Shown one piece after another: positions 6,680 to 13,013 of a stretch of 64,000 nt of DNA. Where the stretch lies: NCBI GenBank assembly GCA_023269825.1, contig JAGDWI010000001.1, positions 740,492 through 804,491 on the forward strand, in the 5' to 3' direction. This DNA comes from Desulfurococcaceae archaeon (GTDB taxonomy: Archaea > Thermoproteota > Thermoprotei_A > Sulfolobales > Desulfurococcaceae). Under the pieces are notes generated by a model. The model was not told the origin of the DNA and searched no databases. It saw nothing but the letters and a program-made list of their open reading frames with translations. Made by a program: the position numbers and the translations under genes. Numbering within the stretch: position 1 is the stretch's first letter; the number at the start of each line of letters is the position of its first letter.

Positions 6680-7885
6680 CTAGTTAAGAGTTTGAGTTTT
6701 AACTTTTGAAACGAAAGCCGCGAGATTCCTTAGCATTATTTCTTTTTCTCTATTTCCAGCTTTTACTTCATCGATTAATCTCGTGAAAAACTCTATTGTT
6801 TTATCCAATTCGCGTACTCTGATCCTATATGGAACTCCGTCTTTGCCTCCATGCGCGTAAGCATATAAAAATGGATCCATAGGGTGCGTAGTTGGATCTC
6901 TGAGAGAGGGTTCATAACCATATATTAAATCTGCTACAAGAGCAATCGCTCGAATTGATTCAGGGCCTATGCCTCTGATAAGCAATAAATCCTTAAAGTT
7001 TCTAGGGGCTTCATGTTTAATTATTTCTGCAGCCTGAGCAACTCTTTTAACATCAGTAATAGGCCTGTAGTAAATAGGACATTTCAATGCTTTCTCGCCG
7101 ACATTTACCCAGCTACCTCTTTTTCCCTGAAAACTATTCGCCGCGTATACTGTTATATCCGGTAAATTCTTCAACAACCGGTTAACGCTATGTAAATCCC
7201 TCATTATGGATTCAATGGGTGTTGATTCTATGATCTCAATCAAGGCTCTTCTCGCCCTCTGGGATTCTTGGTCGACGAGGTTTAGAGCAGTAGTAATTAC
7301 ATGCGATGCAACACCAGAGTGCGGATCCTTTTCACATGAAAGTGTTTCATTTTTATCTACCAGTATATGGTATCTTCTAGCTGTCTTTGATTTCAAATTC
7401 ATACCTTGCTGTATAATCAGTGTTTTCTCGTTATCTGTTACTGCTAAACCATGTATATACAGTGTATAACCGTCCTGTAATCCAACGGAATCTACTTTAG
7501 CTGATAATCTACTAGCTGAAACTATTTTAATAGCGTCGATATCACCCTTCAATTGCTCTGCTTCACGCGGAAGATTCCTTGCATCGCTCCCTTTTCCACC
7601 CAGTACTGCGATGTTGTTCTCTTTGAAACTAGATGGAGGGTAAACAGATTTAAGCACATATAAGACTACGGTTGTTGAACCACTACTATCCCAATCCATT
7701 CCAATGACATTATTAAAAGCCTGAAACCACAGTGGATCAGAGAACCTTCTTAAAATTTCGTCTGGACCATAAATTTCAGCCATGTACCTAACTATAATAG
7801 ATCCGAGAAGCTTCATTCTTCTAAGCAAGTAATTCGGTACTCTGCCTTCATGTAAAGGTAGATCAGATATGCCTTCGATGAACAA
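6680..7885 (-). CDS. DUF763 family protein
   Basis: 401 residues beginning with the DUF763 signature GISDLPLHEGRVPNYLLRRMKLLGSIIVRYMAEIYGPDEILRRFSDPLWFQAFNNVIGMDWDSSGSTTVVLYVLK. Also present are VLGGKGSDARN, KIVSASRLSAKVDS and a C-terminal RGIGPESIRALAL-like helix-hairpin-helix (LLIRGIGPESIRAIALVADLIYG), which suggests nucleic-acid binding. The family occurs in archaea and some thermophilic bacteria, and its role is not established. The upstream region contains AGTATTAAATACT (7911-7923), a palindrome that overlaps the probable TATA element. Confidence 0.85.
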   Translation of the reverse strand: MFIEGISDLPLHEGRVPNYLLRRMKLLGSIIVRYMAEIYGPDEILRRFSDPLWFQAFNNVIGMDWDSSGSTTVVLYVLKSVYPPSSFKENNIAVLGGKGSDARNLPREAEQLKGDIDAIKIVSASRLSAKVDSVGLQDGYTLYIHGLAVTDNEKTLIIQQGMNLKSKTARRYHILVDKNETLSCEKDPHSGVASHVITTALNLVDQESQRARRALIEIIESTPIESIMRDLHSVNRLLKNLPDITVYAANSFQGKRGSWVNVGEKALKCPIYYRPITDVKRVAQAAEIIKHEAPRNFKDLLLIRGIGPESIRAIALVADLIYGYEPSLRDPTTHPMDPFLYAYAHGGKDGVPYRIRVRELDKTIEFFTRLIDEVKAGNREKEIMLRNLAAFVSKVKTQTLN

Positions 7886-7950: not shown

Positions 7951-9843
7951 TTAATTATTTCTTAAAGCTTCTTTACTGCACGATGGTAGAATTAAGTTTG
8001 CCCCCTTCGATCTATACTCTTCGAGCAAGCTTTGATCTAAGTTAACTATTAATGATGGTTCAGAGATCGCGCCCACATACTTTCTCACGAGTTCCCTAAT
8101 TTCCGATTCCCCGCTGCCCCCTGAATATAGTAATAAGGGAGACGTGAATTTCAAGTCGTCTAAGCAAGGTAGAACAAGTGTATTTAACCCAAGCGCTTGT
8201 CTTAAGGCTTTCTCAATGGCTCCAGGACTTAACCTGTAACCACTTGTTTTCAGCACTCCATCCGTTCTACCTAGAACATATAGATACCCTTCTCGTGAAA
8301 GGTATCCGTAATCACCTGTCCTATAATAGTTATCTTTCCACTTCTCCGCATATTCTGGTGGGTATTCAATGGGCATAGCTGGCCAAGGTTTCAATAATAT
8401 TATTTCTCCGAATCCCTCATTCCCTATTTCTCCTTTTTCACTTAGGATCATTACGTGGAAGCCGGGTATGGGTGTACCGCTGGAACCCGGTGCAATGGGT
8501 GTAAAAGTGTAATTTACAAGGTTTCCGGAAATGAATGTTCCTACCTCGCTCTGAATATACATGTTCACAACTGGTATTCTCCCAGACAGCTGACTGGGTA
8601 TAGATTCTATGAATGAAGTGTAACCAGTTCCCACGACTCTATACGTCCACCACCAAATATCAGCTTCCAAGGGTTCAGCTGTTACAATGATTGCTTTCAG
8701 TGTATCCATGTTATGTCTTCTAACGTTTTCATCGCCTTTTCTGGATAGTAGTCTCAGTGCTCCGCCTGTAGTTAAAAACAGTGTTACAGCGTAGTCTTCT
8801 ATTAGACTCCACCATCTATCCCACGATGGGTAATCGGGTCCACCATCATATAGTAAAACAGTTGAACCAATCATTAGTGGCCCGAAAACCAAGTAGCTTA
8901 CTCCCGTGATCCAGCCTGGCCAAACTGTGCAGAAATATGTATCCCGGGGTCTAATGCCAACCCAGCGACTAGTGGAGTAAACTTGAACTAGGAATCCTCC
9001 CGTGGAGTGTGTTATGGGTTCATAGTCATCCCTATACCCACTATGTAAACCAAATAATGGGTGCTCACTATTTGCGACGTATTCCTCAGTGCTCTCATTA
9101 GTTGAAGTGAAATCATCGAATAAAACTTCATTTTCCCTAAGAGATGGTGCACCTATCCTGCTGTAAACGACTACTTGACCCCTGTAATTAGCTTGTTCTA
9201 CTGCTTTTCTAAGCGTGTTTAGAACATCTATTATTCTCCCTCTCCTATAGAAACCATCAGAGGTAAAAACAAGTTTAGGTTCTCTATGCTTTATTCTTCT
9301 AGCTAATTCCCAGAAACCAAACCCTGTAAACACTGGTTCAAATGGAACTCCTAGTTTAACTGCGGCTAGCATTGTTGCAATCGACTCTATTGTTGGAGAT
9401 GAGTAAATAATAATCCATTCACCTGGTTTAAGTCCATTGTTTTTCATGGAATAAGCTATTTTGTCGACTAATGCGTCTAGTTCCCCATATGTTACTGCCC
9501 TCGCTACTCCTTCTTCTCCCTCCCATATTAATGCCGCTTTACTCCAAATCCATGTCTCCCGGTGTTTACCAATAACATTGTAGTATGCACTAAGTTTTCC
9601 GCCTTTAAACCATGTAGCACGAGGACTGCTACCATCGTAAACCTTGCTCCACGTTGAACACCATGTGAGGTTTCTTGCTTCTCGCTGCCAGAATGAGAAG
9701 ACATCTTTAACGCTTTCCTCGTAAATGGCTTTATATTCCTCAAATTTAACTGTTTTCCACTTCATTGAGGGAGGTACTATTTTTTCATCTCTGTAGAGTT
9801 TCTCGAAAACTATTTTATATGGTTGTTCATTCATGTTCATCAA
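7951..9843 (-). CDS. Acetyl-CoA-synthetase-like protein with eroded catalytic motifs
   Basis: 630 residues aligning end to end with AMP-forming acetyl-CoA synthetases: N-terminal FEEYKAIYEESV..FW, VTYGELDALVDKIA, PVFTGFGFWELARRI, VWPGWITGVSYLVFGPL, YYRTGDYGYL (~507-514), GRTDGVLKTSGYRL. Key elements are missing. The phosphate loop YTSGTTGKPKG is replaced by LHSGYRDDYEP (~266-276) ahead of a retained HSTGG, WWQTETG has become MYIQSEVG, and the C-terminal PKTxSGK motif with the adenylating lysine is absent. It is therefore probably unable to adenylate acetate and may be a binding, scaffold or regulatory pseudoenzyme. It is last in the hypD-C-E operon; its start overlaps the upstream stop by 4 bases. 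Confidence 0.75.
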   Translation of the reverse strand: MMNMNEQPYKIVFEKLYRDEKIVPPSMKWKTVKFEEYKAIYEESVKDVFSFWQREARNLTWCSTWSKVYDGSSPRATWFKGGKLSAYYNVIGKHRETWIWSKAALIWEGEEGVARAVTYGELDALVDKIAYSMKNNGLKPGEWIIIYSSPTIESIATMLAAVKLGVPFEPVFTGFGFWELARRIKHREPKLVFTSDGFYRRGRIIDVLNTLRKAVEQANYRGQVVVYSRIGAPSLRENEVLFDDFTSTNESTEEYVANSEHPLFGLHSGYRDDYEPITHSTGGFLVQVYSTSRWVGIRPRDTYFCTVWPGWITGVSYLVFGPLMIGSTVLLYDGGPDYPSWDRWWSLIEDYAVTLFLTTGGALRLLSRKGDENVRRHNMDTLKAIIVTAEPLEADIWWWTYRVVGTGYTSFIESIPSQLSGRIPVVNMYIQSEVGTFISGNLVNYTFTPIAPGSSGTPIPGFHVMILSEKGEIGNEGFGEIILLKPWPAMPIEYPPEYAEKWKDNYYRTGDYGYLSREGYLYVLGRTDGVLKTSGYRLSPGAIEKALRQALGLNTLVLPCLDDLKFTSPLLLYSGGSGESEIRELVRKYVGAISEPSLIVNLDQSLLEEYRSKGANLILPSCSKEALRNN

Positions 9844-10442
9844 CTCAGCTTAATTACCTGTGTATATGGTTGAGCAATATCTCGGAACCTGTAGTATTGC
9901 TCTACTTTATCGTAGTGTACTGGTATTGTTATCGCTGGCCTAAGGCTTTTAACTACCTCTAAAGCTTCCTCCGGGGTCATCACGTATCCTCCACCGATTG
10001 GTGGTATGAGGATTGTGATCTTTTCATTGATACGTAAGATTTCCTCAATGAAGCTTGTATCACCCATATAGTATATATTGAGGTTGTTTGGGAACCTTAG
10101 AATGTAACCTACACAGCAGCCTTTGGGATGTGGTGGAGCTTCAAAGTATAACTCAGGTTTACTATACGCAGGTACCACTAATATATTAGTGTCTCCAAGT
10201 TGAATGATTCCACCTGGTTCAACTCCTGCATGTGTACTTGGAACTAGAAGTTCCCCCTTAAAACTCGATAAATATTCATAACTACAGTGTTTTACGTGCA
10301 TGTGCGTACATAGTACTATATAGCATTTCTCGATTTCACTGCCTGGATCTATGCAGTATGTTTTATCACCGTGCTGTATTTTCACTCCCACTAATCCTAC
10401 TCTGCTAATAGTGATTCCTCGTAGAGAGAGTTCACGAGGCAA
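9840..10442 (-). CDS. Metallo-beta-lactamase-fold hydrolase (UPF0173-like)
   Basis: About 200 residues. The histidine cluster is VLCTHMHVKHC (HxHxxH, with Lys where most members have Asp). Later metal or substrate-site positions are YYMGDTSF and the terminal ITIPVHYDK. The pattern is closest to UPF0173/UlaG-like metal-dependent hydrolases, whose substrates are mostly unknown. The longer frame opens at 10457, but GGTG is ideally spaced for the TTG at 10442. It sits between hypE and the synthetase-like gene with overlaps or short gaps, so it belongs to the hyp operon. Confidence 0.72.
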   Translation of the reverse strand: MPRELSLRGITISRVGLVGVKIQHGDKTYCIDPGSEIEKCYIVLCTHMHVKHCSYEYLSSFKGELLVPSTHAGVEPGGIIQLGDTNILVVPAYSKPELYFEAPPHPKGCCVGYILRFPNNLNIYYMGDTSFIEEILRINEKITILIPPIGGGYVMTPEEALEVVKSLRPAITIPVHYDKVEQYYRFRDIAQPYTQVIKLS

Positions 10443-10450
10443 GTAAACAC

Positions 10451-11497
10451 CTAGCAAATTCTTGGAACAATCTCTCCGCGTGGAGGCTCAACTAGTCTTA
10501 ACCCACCTATACTGGTCTCAGCTGCAACATAGCCCTTAAACATATCTGTTTGCTTGACTTCACCTATAATCCTCGAGTTTCCGAATCCCAGTTTTTTCGC
10601 GTACTCCACTACTTCATCAGCACACTCTGGTTTAAGCGATAACACCGCTACACCCTCGCTCGCGAGATACAGGGGATCTATTCCAAGCATTTCAGAGTAT
10701 CTCTTAACGGGTTCCCTGATTGGGACTTTATCCTCTGAGATATATATCAGCAACTCGTTTTTCTCAGCCCATTCATTGAGGACTCCGGCTAATCCGCCTC
10801 TCGTTGGGTCTCTTGCAGCGTTTACGCAGTACCGGTACTTAGATAGTAATGGCACCATTAGTTTAGTTAATGGTTTAACATCGCTTCTCAACATGCCTGT
10901 ACTTATTTCCTCTATATCTCTACCTAAACCCATCTGCATTAGAAGAATAACTGCTCCATGGTCACCTACATAGTCGCTTACAAATATCTTGTCCCCTGGG
11001 GCCGGCTTATCTATAATAGGGTTATCTGATATGCCTATGGCTGTTGTCGATATAACTATTTTATCGACTTGTCCACGAGGCATTACTTTGAAGTCTCCTC
11101 CTATCAACGCTACGTTTTCTTCTCTGAGAACTTTAAGCATTGATTCAATAACGGCCTCAAGATCTTTTACTGGGAATCCTTCCTCAACTATTATCGTATC
11201 CAGCATCGCTATTGGTTTACCGCCGAGCATTAGTACATCGTTTATTGAACCAGAGGCCGCTAAAACACCGATATCACCGCCGGGGAAAAATATTGGGTTA
11301 ACAGTGTACGAGTCAACTGATACAACAACGTATCTACCATCTGGTAATGGAATCGCTGCTGCATCATCTGCTATATCGATCCCTACGCCCCCCTCAACGC
11401 GTTTCAGTTTATCGTCGACGCGTTTAAATATGAGTTTCTCTAGTAATTCAAGCATTTCAACTCCTCCAGCACCATGCGCTAATGTAATGTAGTCCAT
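10451..11497 (-). CDS. hypE: Hydrogenase maturation protein HypE
   Basis: 348 residues of the PurM/ThiL-like fold. HypE dehydrates the S-carboxamide on its C-terminal cysteine to thiocyanate, giving the CN ligands of the NiFe active site. The protein ends exactly in PRIC, the conserved C-terminus that carries this cysteine. N-terminal AHGAGG, GGVGIDIADDAAAIPL, SVDSYTVNPIFFPGGDIG and DPTRGGLAGVLNE are the ATP and Mg2+ site motifs. GAGGTG six bases upstream supports ATG 11497. It lies three bases after hypC. HypF, which loads the carbamoyl group, is not in the window. Confidence 0.95.
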   Translation of the reverse strand: MDYITLAHGAGGVEMLELLEKLIFKRVDDKLKRVEGGVGIDIADDAAAIPLPDGRYVVVSVDSYTVNPIFFPGGDIGVLAASGSINDVLMLGGKPIAMLDTIIVEEGFPVKDLEAVIESMLKVLREENVALIGGDFKVMPRGQVDKIVISTTAIGISDNPIIDKPAPGDKIFVSDYVGDHGAVILLMQMGLGRDIEEISTGMLRSDVKPLTKLMVPLLSKYRYCVNAARDPTRGGLAGVLNEWAEKNELLIYISEDKVPIREPVKRYSEMLGIDPLYLASEGVAVLSLKPECADEVVEYAKKLGFGNSRIIGEVKQTDMFKGYVAAETSIGGLRLVEPPRGEIVPRIC

Positions 11498-11500
11498 GGT

Positions 11501-11800
11501 TTACACCTCTCCTTGTCTCAACAACTTGGATTTCTCCAGGAGTAACTCGTAGATAGAGGTGAAGCTAGGGGCATCTTGCCCCAGTACTTCCTCGAAGAAC
11601 TTGACTTGCTCTAATACGTCTTCTTCACTCATCTTTGATACAATAACGCCCGCGTGAACTATCACTATATCGCCTTTATTCACTCTATCACTCGATATTC
11701 CTATTAAGACACTTCTTGGAACACCGTCCCCGTAGTCAACTTTAGCTGTCATTTTATCATAGTCTACTTCCAATATTACTGCAGGTGTACCTAGACACAT
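11501..11800 (-). CDS. hypC: Hydrogenase maturation chaperone HypC
   Basis: 99 residues of the HypC/HupF family. The true N-terminus must be M-C-L-G-T-P, because the processed Cys2 binds the Fe(CN)2CO intermediate. An in-frame GTG four codons upstream (11812) is therefore rejected in favour of ATG 11800, which also has GGTGG at the right distance. The OB-like barrel (VILEVDYDKMTAKVDYGDGVPRSVLIGI..VNKGDIVIVHAGVIV) is followed by a long C-terminal helix. It works with HypD to assemble and deliver the iron-ligand unit. The gene starts one base after the hypD stop. Confidence 0.93.
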   Translation of the reverse strand: MCLGTPAVILEVDYDKMTAKVDYGDGVPRSVLIGISSDRVNKGDIVIVHAGVIVSKMSEEDVLEQVKFFEEVLGQDAPSFTSIYELLLEKSKLLRQGEV

Positions 11801-11801
11801 T

Positions 11802-13013
11802 TTAAGCACCACCTATGTTTCCCTTTAATTCAATAGATAACTTTAAGAGTAAATCTCTTGAACCATACTTAGCCCATATAGCGCATGTTCCTTCTGCTGA
11901 CACCATGCATGGCCCAATTGGTGATGAGGGGGTACACGCTCTTAAAAATAGTGGACACTGTGAGGGGTAAGCTTTTCCAAGTACTACCTCAGCGCACCTA
12001 CACCCTGATGGCATATCATACCCCCAGTCAACTGGAGATAGTTCACGTATACCATACTCCTTGAAAGCATCTTGATCCGAGTAATCTTCCCTCATTCTCA
12101 ACCCACTCTTAGGGAGAAATCCTATACCTCTCCAAGCATCGTCAACGGATTCGAAGACTCTCCAAATAGATGACTGTGCAGCTACATCTCCATGATATGA
12201 TACAGCTCTAACATACTCGATGACTACACTTGGTTTCCCTCTAACTAGTTGCTCCATGATCTTCATTATTGAGACAAGTACATCTACTGGTTCAAAACCA
12301 GATATCACAACGGGTATTCCATAATTCTCCGCTACTGGTTCCCAGGCCTTCGCACCCGTTACAGTGGATACGTGTCCTGGAGCTATTACTCCCTTAACCG
12401 GTGGCTCCGTGGGTTTCTCCTGTGAAACCTCTAACGCGTAGAACATTGCTGGAGGAGTTAACTTAACTAAGCTTAACAGCTTCAAGTTACCTGGAATCAG
12501 CCTCTTGATCACTGCTTGAGCGTAACCAGGTGCAACTGTCTCGAAACCTATGCCCGCGAAAACAGATGGTTTACCGTGTAATTTAGCGTCCTTGATTGCA
12601 GCCAGGAGATCTGATACTACTTTCACGTTTCCCCCTGAAGCATGAGCCTCACTAAGAGAGTAAAAACCTTTCACGCTTCTATGAGATCTTAACTTGTAAA
12701 CATCCCCATAAGTATAGACTGTTACACCATCTAAAGCTAACCTAATTAACTCCTCTACATAATAAGATGGAGTAACACAAACAGGGCACCCTGGACCAGC
12801 CACTAATTCTACACCCCGCGGTAAAAGGCTCCTAATACCATAGTGCGTAATAGTCCACTCATGTGTTCCACAGAAATCCATTATCTTTAAGTGATCTACA
12901 CCTGTCTCCTTCATATATGAAAACCAGTAGTCATTAATCTTTCTCACGATAACTCTAACTAAATCCCTGTTTTTTCTAAGTATGTTTTCAAGCTCGCTCA
13001 GCAACTTCGACAA
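11802..13013 (-). CDS. hypD: Hydrogenase maturation protein HypD
   Basis: 403 residues. Diagnostic motifs are MDFCGTHEWTITHYGIRSLLP (Cys of the iron-binding/redox site), GPGCPVCVTP, GFETVAPG and PVVISGFEPVD. The C-terminal [4Fe-4S] cysteine set is CRCAEVV...QCPLFLRAC...GPCMVSAEGTC. HypD is the redox scaffold on which CN and CO are bound to Fe before transfer to the hydrogenase large subunit. It begins with TTG. First gene of a leftward operon hypD-hypC-hypE-MBL-synthetase-like. No hydrogenase structural genes are visible in the window. Confidence 0.95.
   Translation of the reverse strand: MSKLLSELENILRKNRDLVRVIVRKINDYWFSYMKETGVDHLKIMDFCGTHEWTITHYGIRSLLPRGVELVAGPGCPVCVTPSYYVEELIRLALDGVTVYTYGDVYKLRSHRSVKGFYSLSEAHASGGNVKVVSDLLAAIKDAKLHGKPSVFAGIGFETVAPGYAQAVIKRLIPGNLKLLSLVKLTPPAMFYALEVSQEKPTEPPVKGVIAPGHVSTVTGAKAWEPVAENYGIPVVISGFEPVDVLVSIMKIMEQLVRGKPSVVIEYVRAVSYHGDVAAQSSIWRVFESVDDAWRGIGFLPKSGLRMREDYSDQDAFKEYGIRELSPVDWGYDMPSGCRCAEVVLGKAYPSQCPLFLRACTPSSPIGPCMVSAEGTCAIWAKYGSRDLLLKLSIELKGNIGGA

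Follow-up and report, generated by a model that had tools for sequence, protein, structure and literature searches.

To our knowledge, no anaerobic enzyme is known for the CO ligand of [NiFe]-hydrogenase. In aerobic maturation, CO is made by HypX via formyl-CoA (PMC6802093, PMC12134894), and formyl-CoA has been weighed in a review as a possible precursor in anaerobes (PMC6802093 / PMC12134894). Canonical acetyl-CoA synthetase (Acs) works in two steps: ATP and the acid give acyl-AMP, and acyl-AMP and CoA then give acyl-CoA (PMC10455477). Mutagenesis has shown that the Arg191/Arg526/Arg584 triad of Acs is needed for the use of CoA (PMC10455477).

We analysed a stretch of 64,000 nucleotides (hereafter the window) from a Desulfurococcaceae archaeon, in which a gene for an acetyl-CoA-synthetase-like (ACS-like) protein ends an operon of hydrogenase-maturation (hyp) genes. 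With a probability of roughly 0.6, we regard this protein as a dedicated archaeal [NiFe]-hydrogenase-maturation accessory, derived from ACS, that has lost the ATP half of the enzyme and retained the half binding CoA and the adenylate phosphate. The features concerned are the following.

6680..7885, minus strand: DUF763 protein, on the same strand as the ACS-like gene and directly downstream of it (Pfam)
7951..9843, minus strand: ACS-like half-synthetase gene, 630 codons from TTG (Pfam/NCBIfam, alignment, model)
9840..10457, minus strand: metallo-beta-lactamase (MBL)-fold partner (Pfam/NCBIfam, alignment, model)
10451..11497, minus strand: HypE, with the C-terminal PRIC present (TIGR02124, 333 bits, above cut-off)
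11501..11812, minus strand: HypC chaperone (PF01455)
11802..13013, minus strand: HypD, in a clade with all 17 sampled HypDs of ACS-like-bearing genomes (Pfam/NCBIfam, tree)

Pfam and NCBIfam identify the neighbours and give the order hypD-hypC-hypE-MBL-ACSlike, the genes being separated by 3 bases or overlapping. This agrees with a preliminary description of the window, which had placed the ACS-like gene last in a tightly spaced series after hypD-hypC-hypE and an MBL-fold gene. The DUF763 gene probably lies outside the ACS-like/hyp module; it adjoins the ACS-like gene in genome G005 as well, and none of the other loci read shows the pairing. The ACS-like frame is open for 630 codons with TTG at 9843. 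Judging from the sequence, the true start is probably an ATG near 9834, giving 627 aa, because the orthologue L002 starts at a Met that matches M4 of the window protein.

The ACS-like protein has the fold of the ANL (AMP-binding) superfamily: the AMP-binding domain scores 125 bits against a PF00501 gathering score of 29.9, the acetyl-CoA synthetase N-terminal domain is also recognized by Pfam, and the predicted structure has a TM score of 0.86 to 1PG4. Against NCBIfam TIGR02188 (acetate--CoA ligase) it reaches 375.4 bits, short of the curated cut-off of 724.95. When 398 Thermoproteota genomes were searched with a profile, the family turned up in 32, with members scoring ~640-1108 bits; the proteins of G123, G163 and G212 (463-468 bits) have P-loop and A10 intact and belong to canonical ACS. 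Full-length or nearly full-length copies occur in 9 of the 61 genomes that comprise the window's own and 60 relatives. The eight other copies are 46-72% identical to the window protein, and canonical ACS come next at <39%. In a phylogenetic tree all 32 sequences form one clade (support 100), cleanly apart from canonical ACS, so that the P-loop and A10 losses described below are most simply explained by a single event. Members are found in the window's order, in Thermoproteaceae, including the cultivated Pyrobaculum oguniense, and in further groups. Contigs of 84,980 species gave matches in Thermoproteota only, in a scan that was incomplete and missed several known members.

Pairwise dN/dS values of 0.09-0.14 indicate purifying selection on the family. 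Together with intact frames in nearly all members they rule out a pseudogene, and the preliminary description was right to see in the open 630-codon frame a gene under selection. A frameshift or assembly error mimicking the altered motif is ruled out by the identical motif in independent genomes. Nor is this an ordinary ACS with a few changes, since the nearest canonical ACS keep P-loop and A10 and the two groups split cleanly in the tree. With both of these defining motifs examined and absent, the ACS-like family is placed outside ACS proper, as a new branch that derives from acetyl-CoA synthetase and is associated with Hyp. A literature search of limited coverage found no hyp-linked ACS relative.

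Residues were counted in an alignment of the 32 members with 15 canonical relatives, one row being cut by a contig end. The correspondence to Salmonella Acs is one that we assume from motif alignment and the Acs sequence. In the window protein the P-loop YTSGTTGKPKG is replaced by LHSGYRDDYEP with one residue deleted, the A5 motif WWQTETG reads MYIQSEVG and the A10 motif PKTRSGK is missing, whereas TGD, GRTDG and SGYR are retained; the alignment thus reproduces the losses and retentions first noted by eye. They turn out to be common to the family. The A3 phosphate loop [ST]SG[ST]TGxPK is found in 0/32 members, with its conserved Thr deleted in 32/32 and its conserved Gly changed to Asp or Glu in 27/32, and the A10 catalytic lysine (Lys609) is likewise found in 0/32. 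An orthologue with an intact P-loop and catalytic lysine was sought among these 32 members and none was found. Both A5 and the sequence replacing the P-loop are variable in L170-L172, the three most diverged members.

The residues retained are of a different kind. The arginine triad is represented by R200 (= Arg191) in 32/32 members, R537 (= Arg526) in 31/32 and R587 (= Arg584) in 31/32, the gap being the truncated row. In window numbering, D511 (motif III), E433, R526 and E390 are each present in 32/32; the motif III Asp, the A5 Glu and the R515 equivalent are kept in 31-32 of 32, again with one row truncated. Since the P-loop and the A10 lysine serve the adenylation step and the retained residues serve the thioester step, what is left in the ACS-like protein resembles the half of a synthetase that handles CoA. 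In other words, ordinary ATP-dependent adenylation is very probably beyond it, as far as its motifs tell. It might still be an acetate/propionate--CoA ligase that handles ATP via an alternative loop, as the intact fold and A7/A8 motifs would permit, but the acidic residue at the conserved P-loop glycine, the A10 lysine missing from every member, the score of 375 bits against a 725-bit cut-off and the tie to hyp genes make this highly improbable.

Family-specific substitutions have remodelled the acyl pocket. Trp414 of the acetate pocket is replaced by Ile in 31/32 members and by Val in 1/32; Val386 is changed to Thr, and Gly387 to Ala in 32/32. The Ile and Ala replacements suggest altered chemistry, and the P-loop and A10 lysine are gone from all members, both of which would suit a non-catalytic pseudoenzyme, either a scaffold holding HypCDE and the MBL protein or a sensor of acetyl-CoA/AMP gating maturation by energy state. 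The retained CoA and adenylate contacts would suit a sensor equally. We consider this reading possible but doubtful, because the whole thioester-forming site is strictly retained and the conserved rebuilt pocket (T388, I430, 'CTVWPGW') looks functional. The term pseudoenzyme, used in the preliminary description, is apt for the ATP-activating half, which is lost in 32/32 members, but too blunt for a protein that retains the CoA/adenylate half in which the thioester is formed.

The AlphaFold2 model of the ACS-like protein, built with 31 sequences (pLDDT 92.9, pTM 0.93), bears out the expected ACS fold. Superposition on Acs structures from Salmonella, among them 2P2F (CoA-bound and thioester-forming), gives an rmsd of 2.2-2.5 and a TM score of 0.86, whereas the fit to the adenylate-forming 1RY2 is poorer (rmsd 9.3, TM 0.73). 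The modelled match to the thioester-forming conformation lends weak support to a CoA half, since AlphaFold tends to favour the commonest conformation in the PDB and most solved Acs structures are thioester-forming.

The association with hyp genes extends well beyond the window. In the set of 61 genomes, hypD lies ~2 kb from the ACS-like gene in 9/9 carriers, with the order hypD-C-E-MBL-ACSlike. When all loci read are considered, 30 of 33 have one or more genes of the hyp, nickel-regulator, HypB-like or hydrogenase type within 8 kb, with several different gene orders and a linkage that extends across taxonomic orders; in three genomes (G154, G069 and G219) the gene stands away from hyp genes. 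HypD is present in 31/32 ACS-like genomes versus 251/398 overall (one-sided Fisher 4e-6, ignoring shared ancestry). The tie to hydrogenase maturation that had been proposed from the window's gene order is supported for the family. In the one carrier that lacks HypD, G411, the ACS-like copy is frame-broken at a contig end (L177 / L082, G411:C18:5-1168). This would be expected if the gene decayed once the pathway was lost, though a faulty assembly could also account for it. HypD, a strong MBL hit and the ACS-like gene are jointly missing from four genomes of g58, the genus to which P. oguniense belongs. On the other hand, ~220 of the 251 HypD-bearing genomes have no ACS-like gene. Consequently, it is not a general requirement for maturation, and a universal CO-ligand enzyme is ruled out. 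The same figure would suit an operon hitchhiker with an unrelated function in the cell, but linkage that endures across orders and gene orders, the joint loss with hyp in g58 and the broken copy in G411 render such a passenger very improbable.

The HypD tree points to a dedicated accessory as well. HypDs sampled from carriers group in a single clade with support 85, separate from those of non-carriers in the same taxonomic family, which argues that the ACS-like/MBL pair marks a distinct Hyp lineage. Two HypD groups are thus seen within one archaeal family, the pair-associated one spanning several orders (window 11802-13013, L031-L060, L178-L197), a pattern suggesting that entire hyp operons were transferred or replaced. 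Right after HypA, at the place expected for HypB, Thermoproteales encode a NUBPL/Mrp-type P-loop protein (L077:7199-7990, L152:10559-11332, L153:195-968). With HypF above cut-off in each of the nine carriers in the set of 61 genomes, the cyanide branch seems to be intact. The ACS-like protein could conceivably belong to that branch, binding carbamoyl-AMP, which is isosteric with acetyl-AMP, and passing the carbamoyl group to the C-terminal cysteine of HypE; adenylate-side residues are retained, and a HypE gene is near in most loci. However, HypF already does this job, and a peptide thiol needs no conserved arginine for the CoA 3'-phosphate (the Arg584 equivalent), so that we find such a role improbable.

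The MBL partner is co-inherited with the ACS-like protein, even when the two genes are unlinked. Its scores are separated by a gap, with 30 genomes at 151-298 bits and generic relatives at ≤140. As many as 29 of these 30 genomes also carry the ACS-like gene, the exception being G378, a genome 73% complete. Carriers without a strong MBL are G411, already mentioned, and G159 and G076, which have weak copies that are adjacent or hyp-linked. In G154 the MBL and ACS-like genes are ~0.78 Mb apart and both retained, and in G069 and G219 the MBL gene is still beside the ACS-like gene despite the distance from hyp genes. The protein keeps invariant metal ligands, five His and one Asp, although in the HxHxxH motif the usual second-metal Asp (HxHxDH) is Lys or Arg in most members. 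Near this motif are two invariant cysteines, C35 and C45, specific to the family. Its score against PRK00685 (61.6 bits) is below the cut-off of 144; the model (pLDDT 92.8) finds its closest solved structures among UPF0173 hydrolases.

Taken as a maturation accessory, the ACS-like protein would descend from an AMP-forming acetyl-CoA synthetase that lost its ATP-activating half (P-loop and A10 lysine). With the CoA- and adenylate-phosphate-binding half retained, it may bind CoA or a small acyl-CoA and presumably works together with the MBL protein and HypCDE in a distinct lineage of the archaeal Hyp system. It is tempting to go further and speculate that it supplies a precursor of the CO ligand to the hydrogenase. 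The idea is worth stating because HypX uses formyl-CoA, no anaerobic enzyme is known to us and formyl-CoA has been raised in the review mentioned above. By analogy, the ACS-like and MBL proteins might do in anaerobes what HypX does: the ACS-like protein would hold formyl-CoA (or a different C1-CoA thioester) in its retained thioester site and, with the MBL protein, release CO to the Fe of HypCD, a proposal that we hold to be rather unlikely as it stands. Against it speaks that the majority of HypD-bearing archaea manage without the ACS-like protein. As to whether the pair replaces another source of CO, the CODH/prismane family PF03063 is found in 4/32 ACS-like genomes versus 130/398 overall, a difference confounded by deep phylogeny: in genus g18 it is present in carriers and non-carriers alike, and most family-f1 genomes lack it, carrier or not.

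The ACS-like/MBL pair is conserved and co-inherited with hypCDE, including in P. oguniense, and this lasting association with hyp genes makes the ACS-like protein a candidate for an overlooked part in building the cofactor. If true, the analogy with HypX would give one answer to the anaerobic source of the CO ligand in [NiFe]-hydrogenase, and the question would be approachable with two purified proteins, ACS-like and MBL. There is also a practical side. Automated annotation would name the protein acetyl-CoA synthetase, and since it is the sole PF00501 (AMP-binding) protein found in the window's genome (G000), any acetate activation derived from that name is probably wrong.

How, then, does the system compare with those already described? 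With Acs (TIGR02188; PDB 1PG4/2P2F, 8RPL) the ACS-like protein shares full-length homology, the fold and the CoA/adenylate-phosphate contacts. It differs in the missing P-loop and A10 lysine, in the replacement of Trp414 by Ile and in an identity of only ~25-29% to the solved structures; unlike Acs, the family is monophyletic and Hyp-linked. With HypX, which acts through formyl-CoA (PMC6802093, PMC12134894), the common point is a Hyp-linked protein, in our case a predicted CoA binder. However, the folds are unrelated, and the formyl-THF transferase and enoyl-CoA-hydratase-like domains of HypX are absent from the ACS-like protein, in which Pfam finds only AMP-binding and ACAS_N. The MBL partner shares with UPF0173 hydrolases and ascorbate-6-phosphate lactonase the MBL fold, the HxH..H motif and the Asp and final His ligands, whereas Lys or Arg in place of the second-metal Asp (in most members) and the two invariant cysteines set it apart. 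Finally, the carriers have HypC, HypD, HypE and HypF as in the canonical HypA-F system, but add to it the MBL and ACS-like pair, and their HypD belongs to a separate clade.
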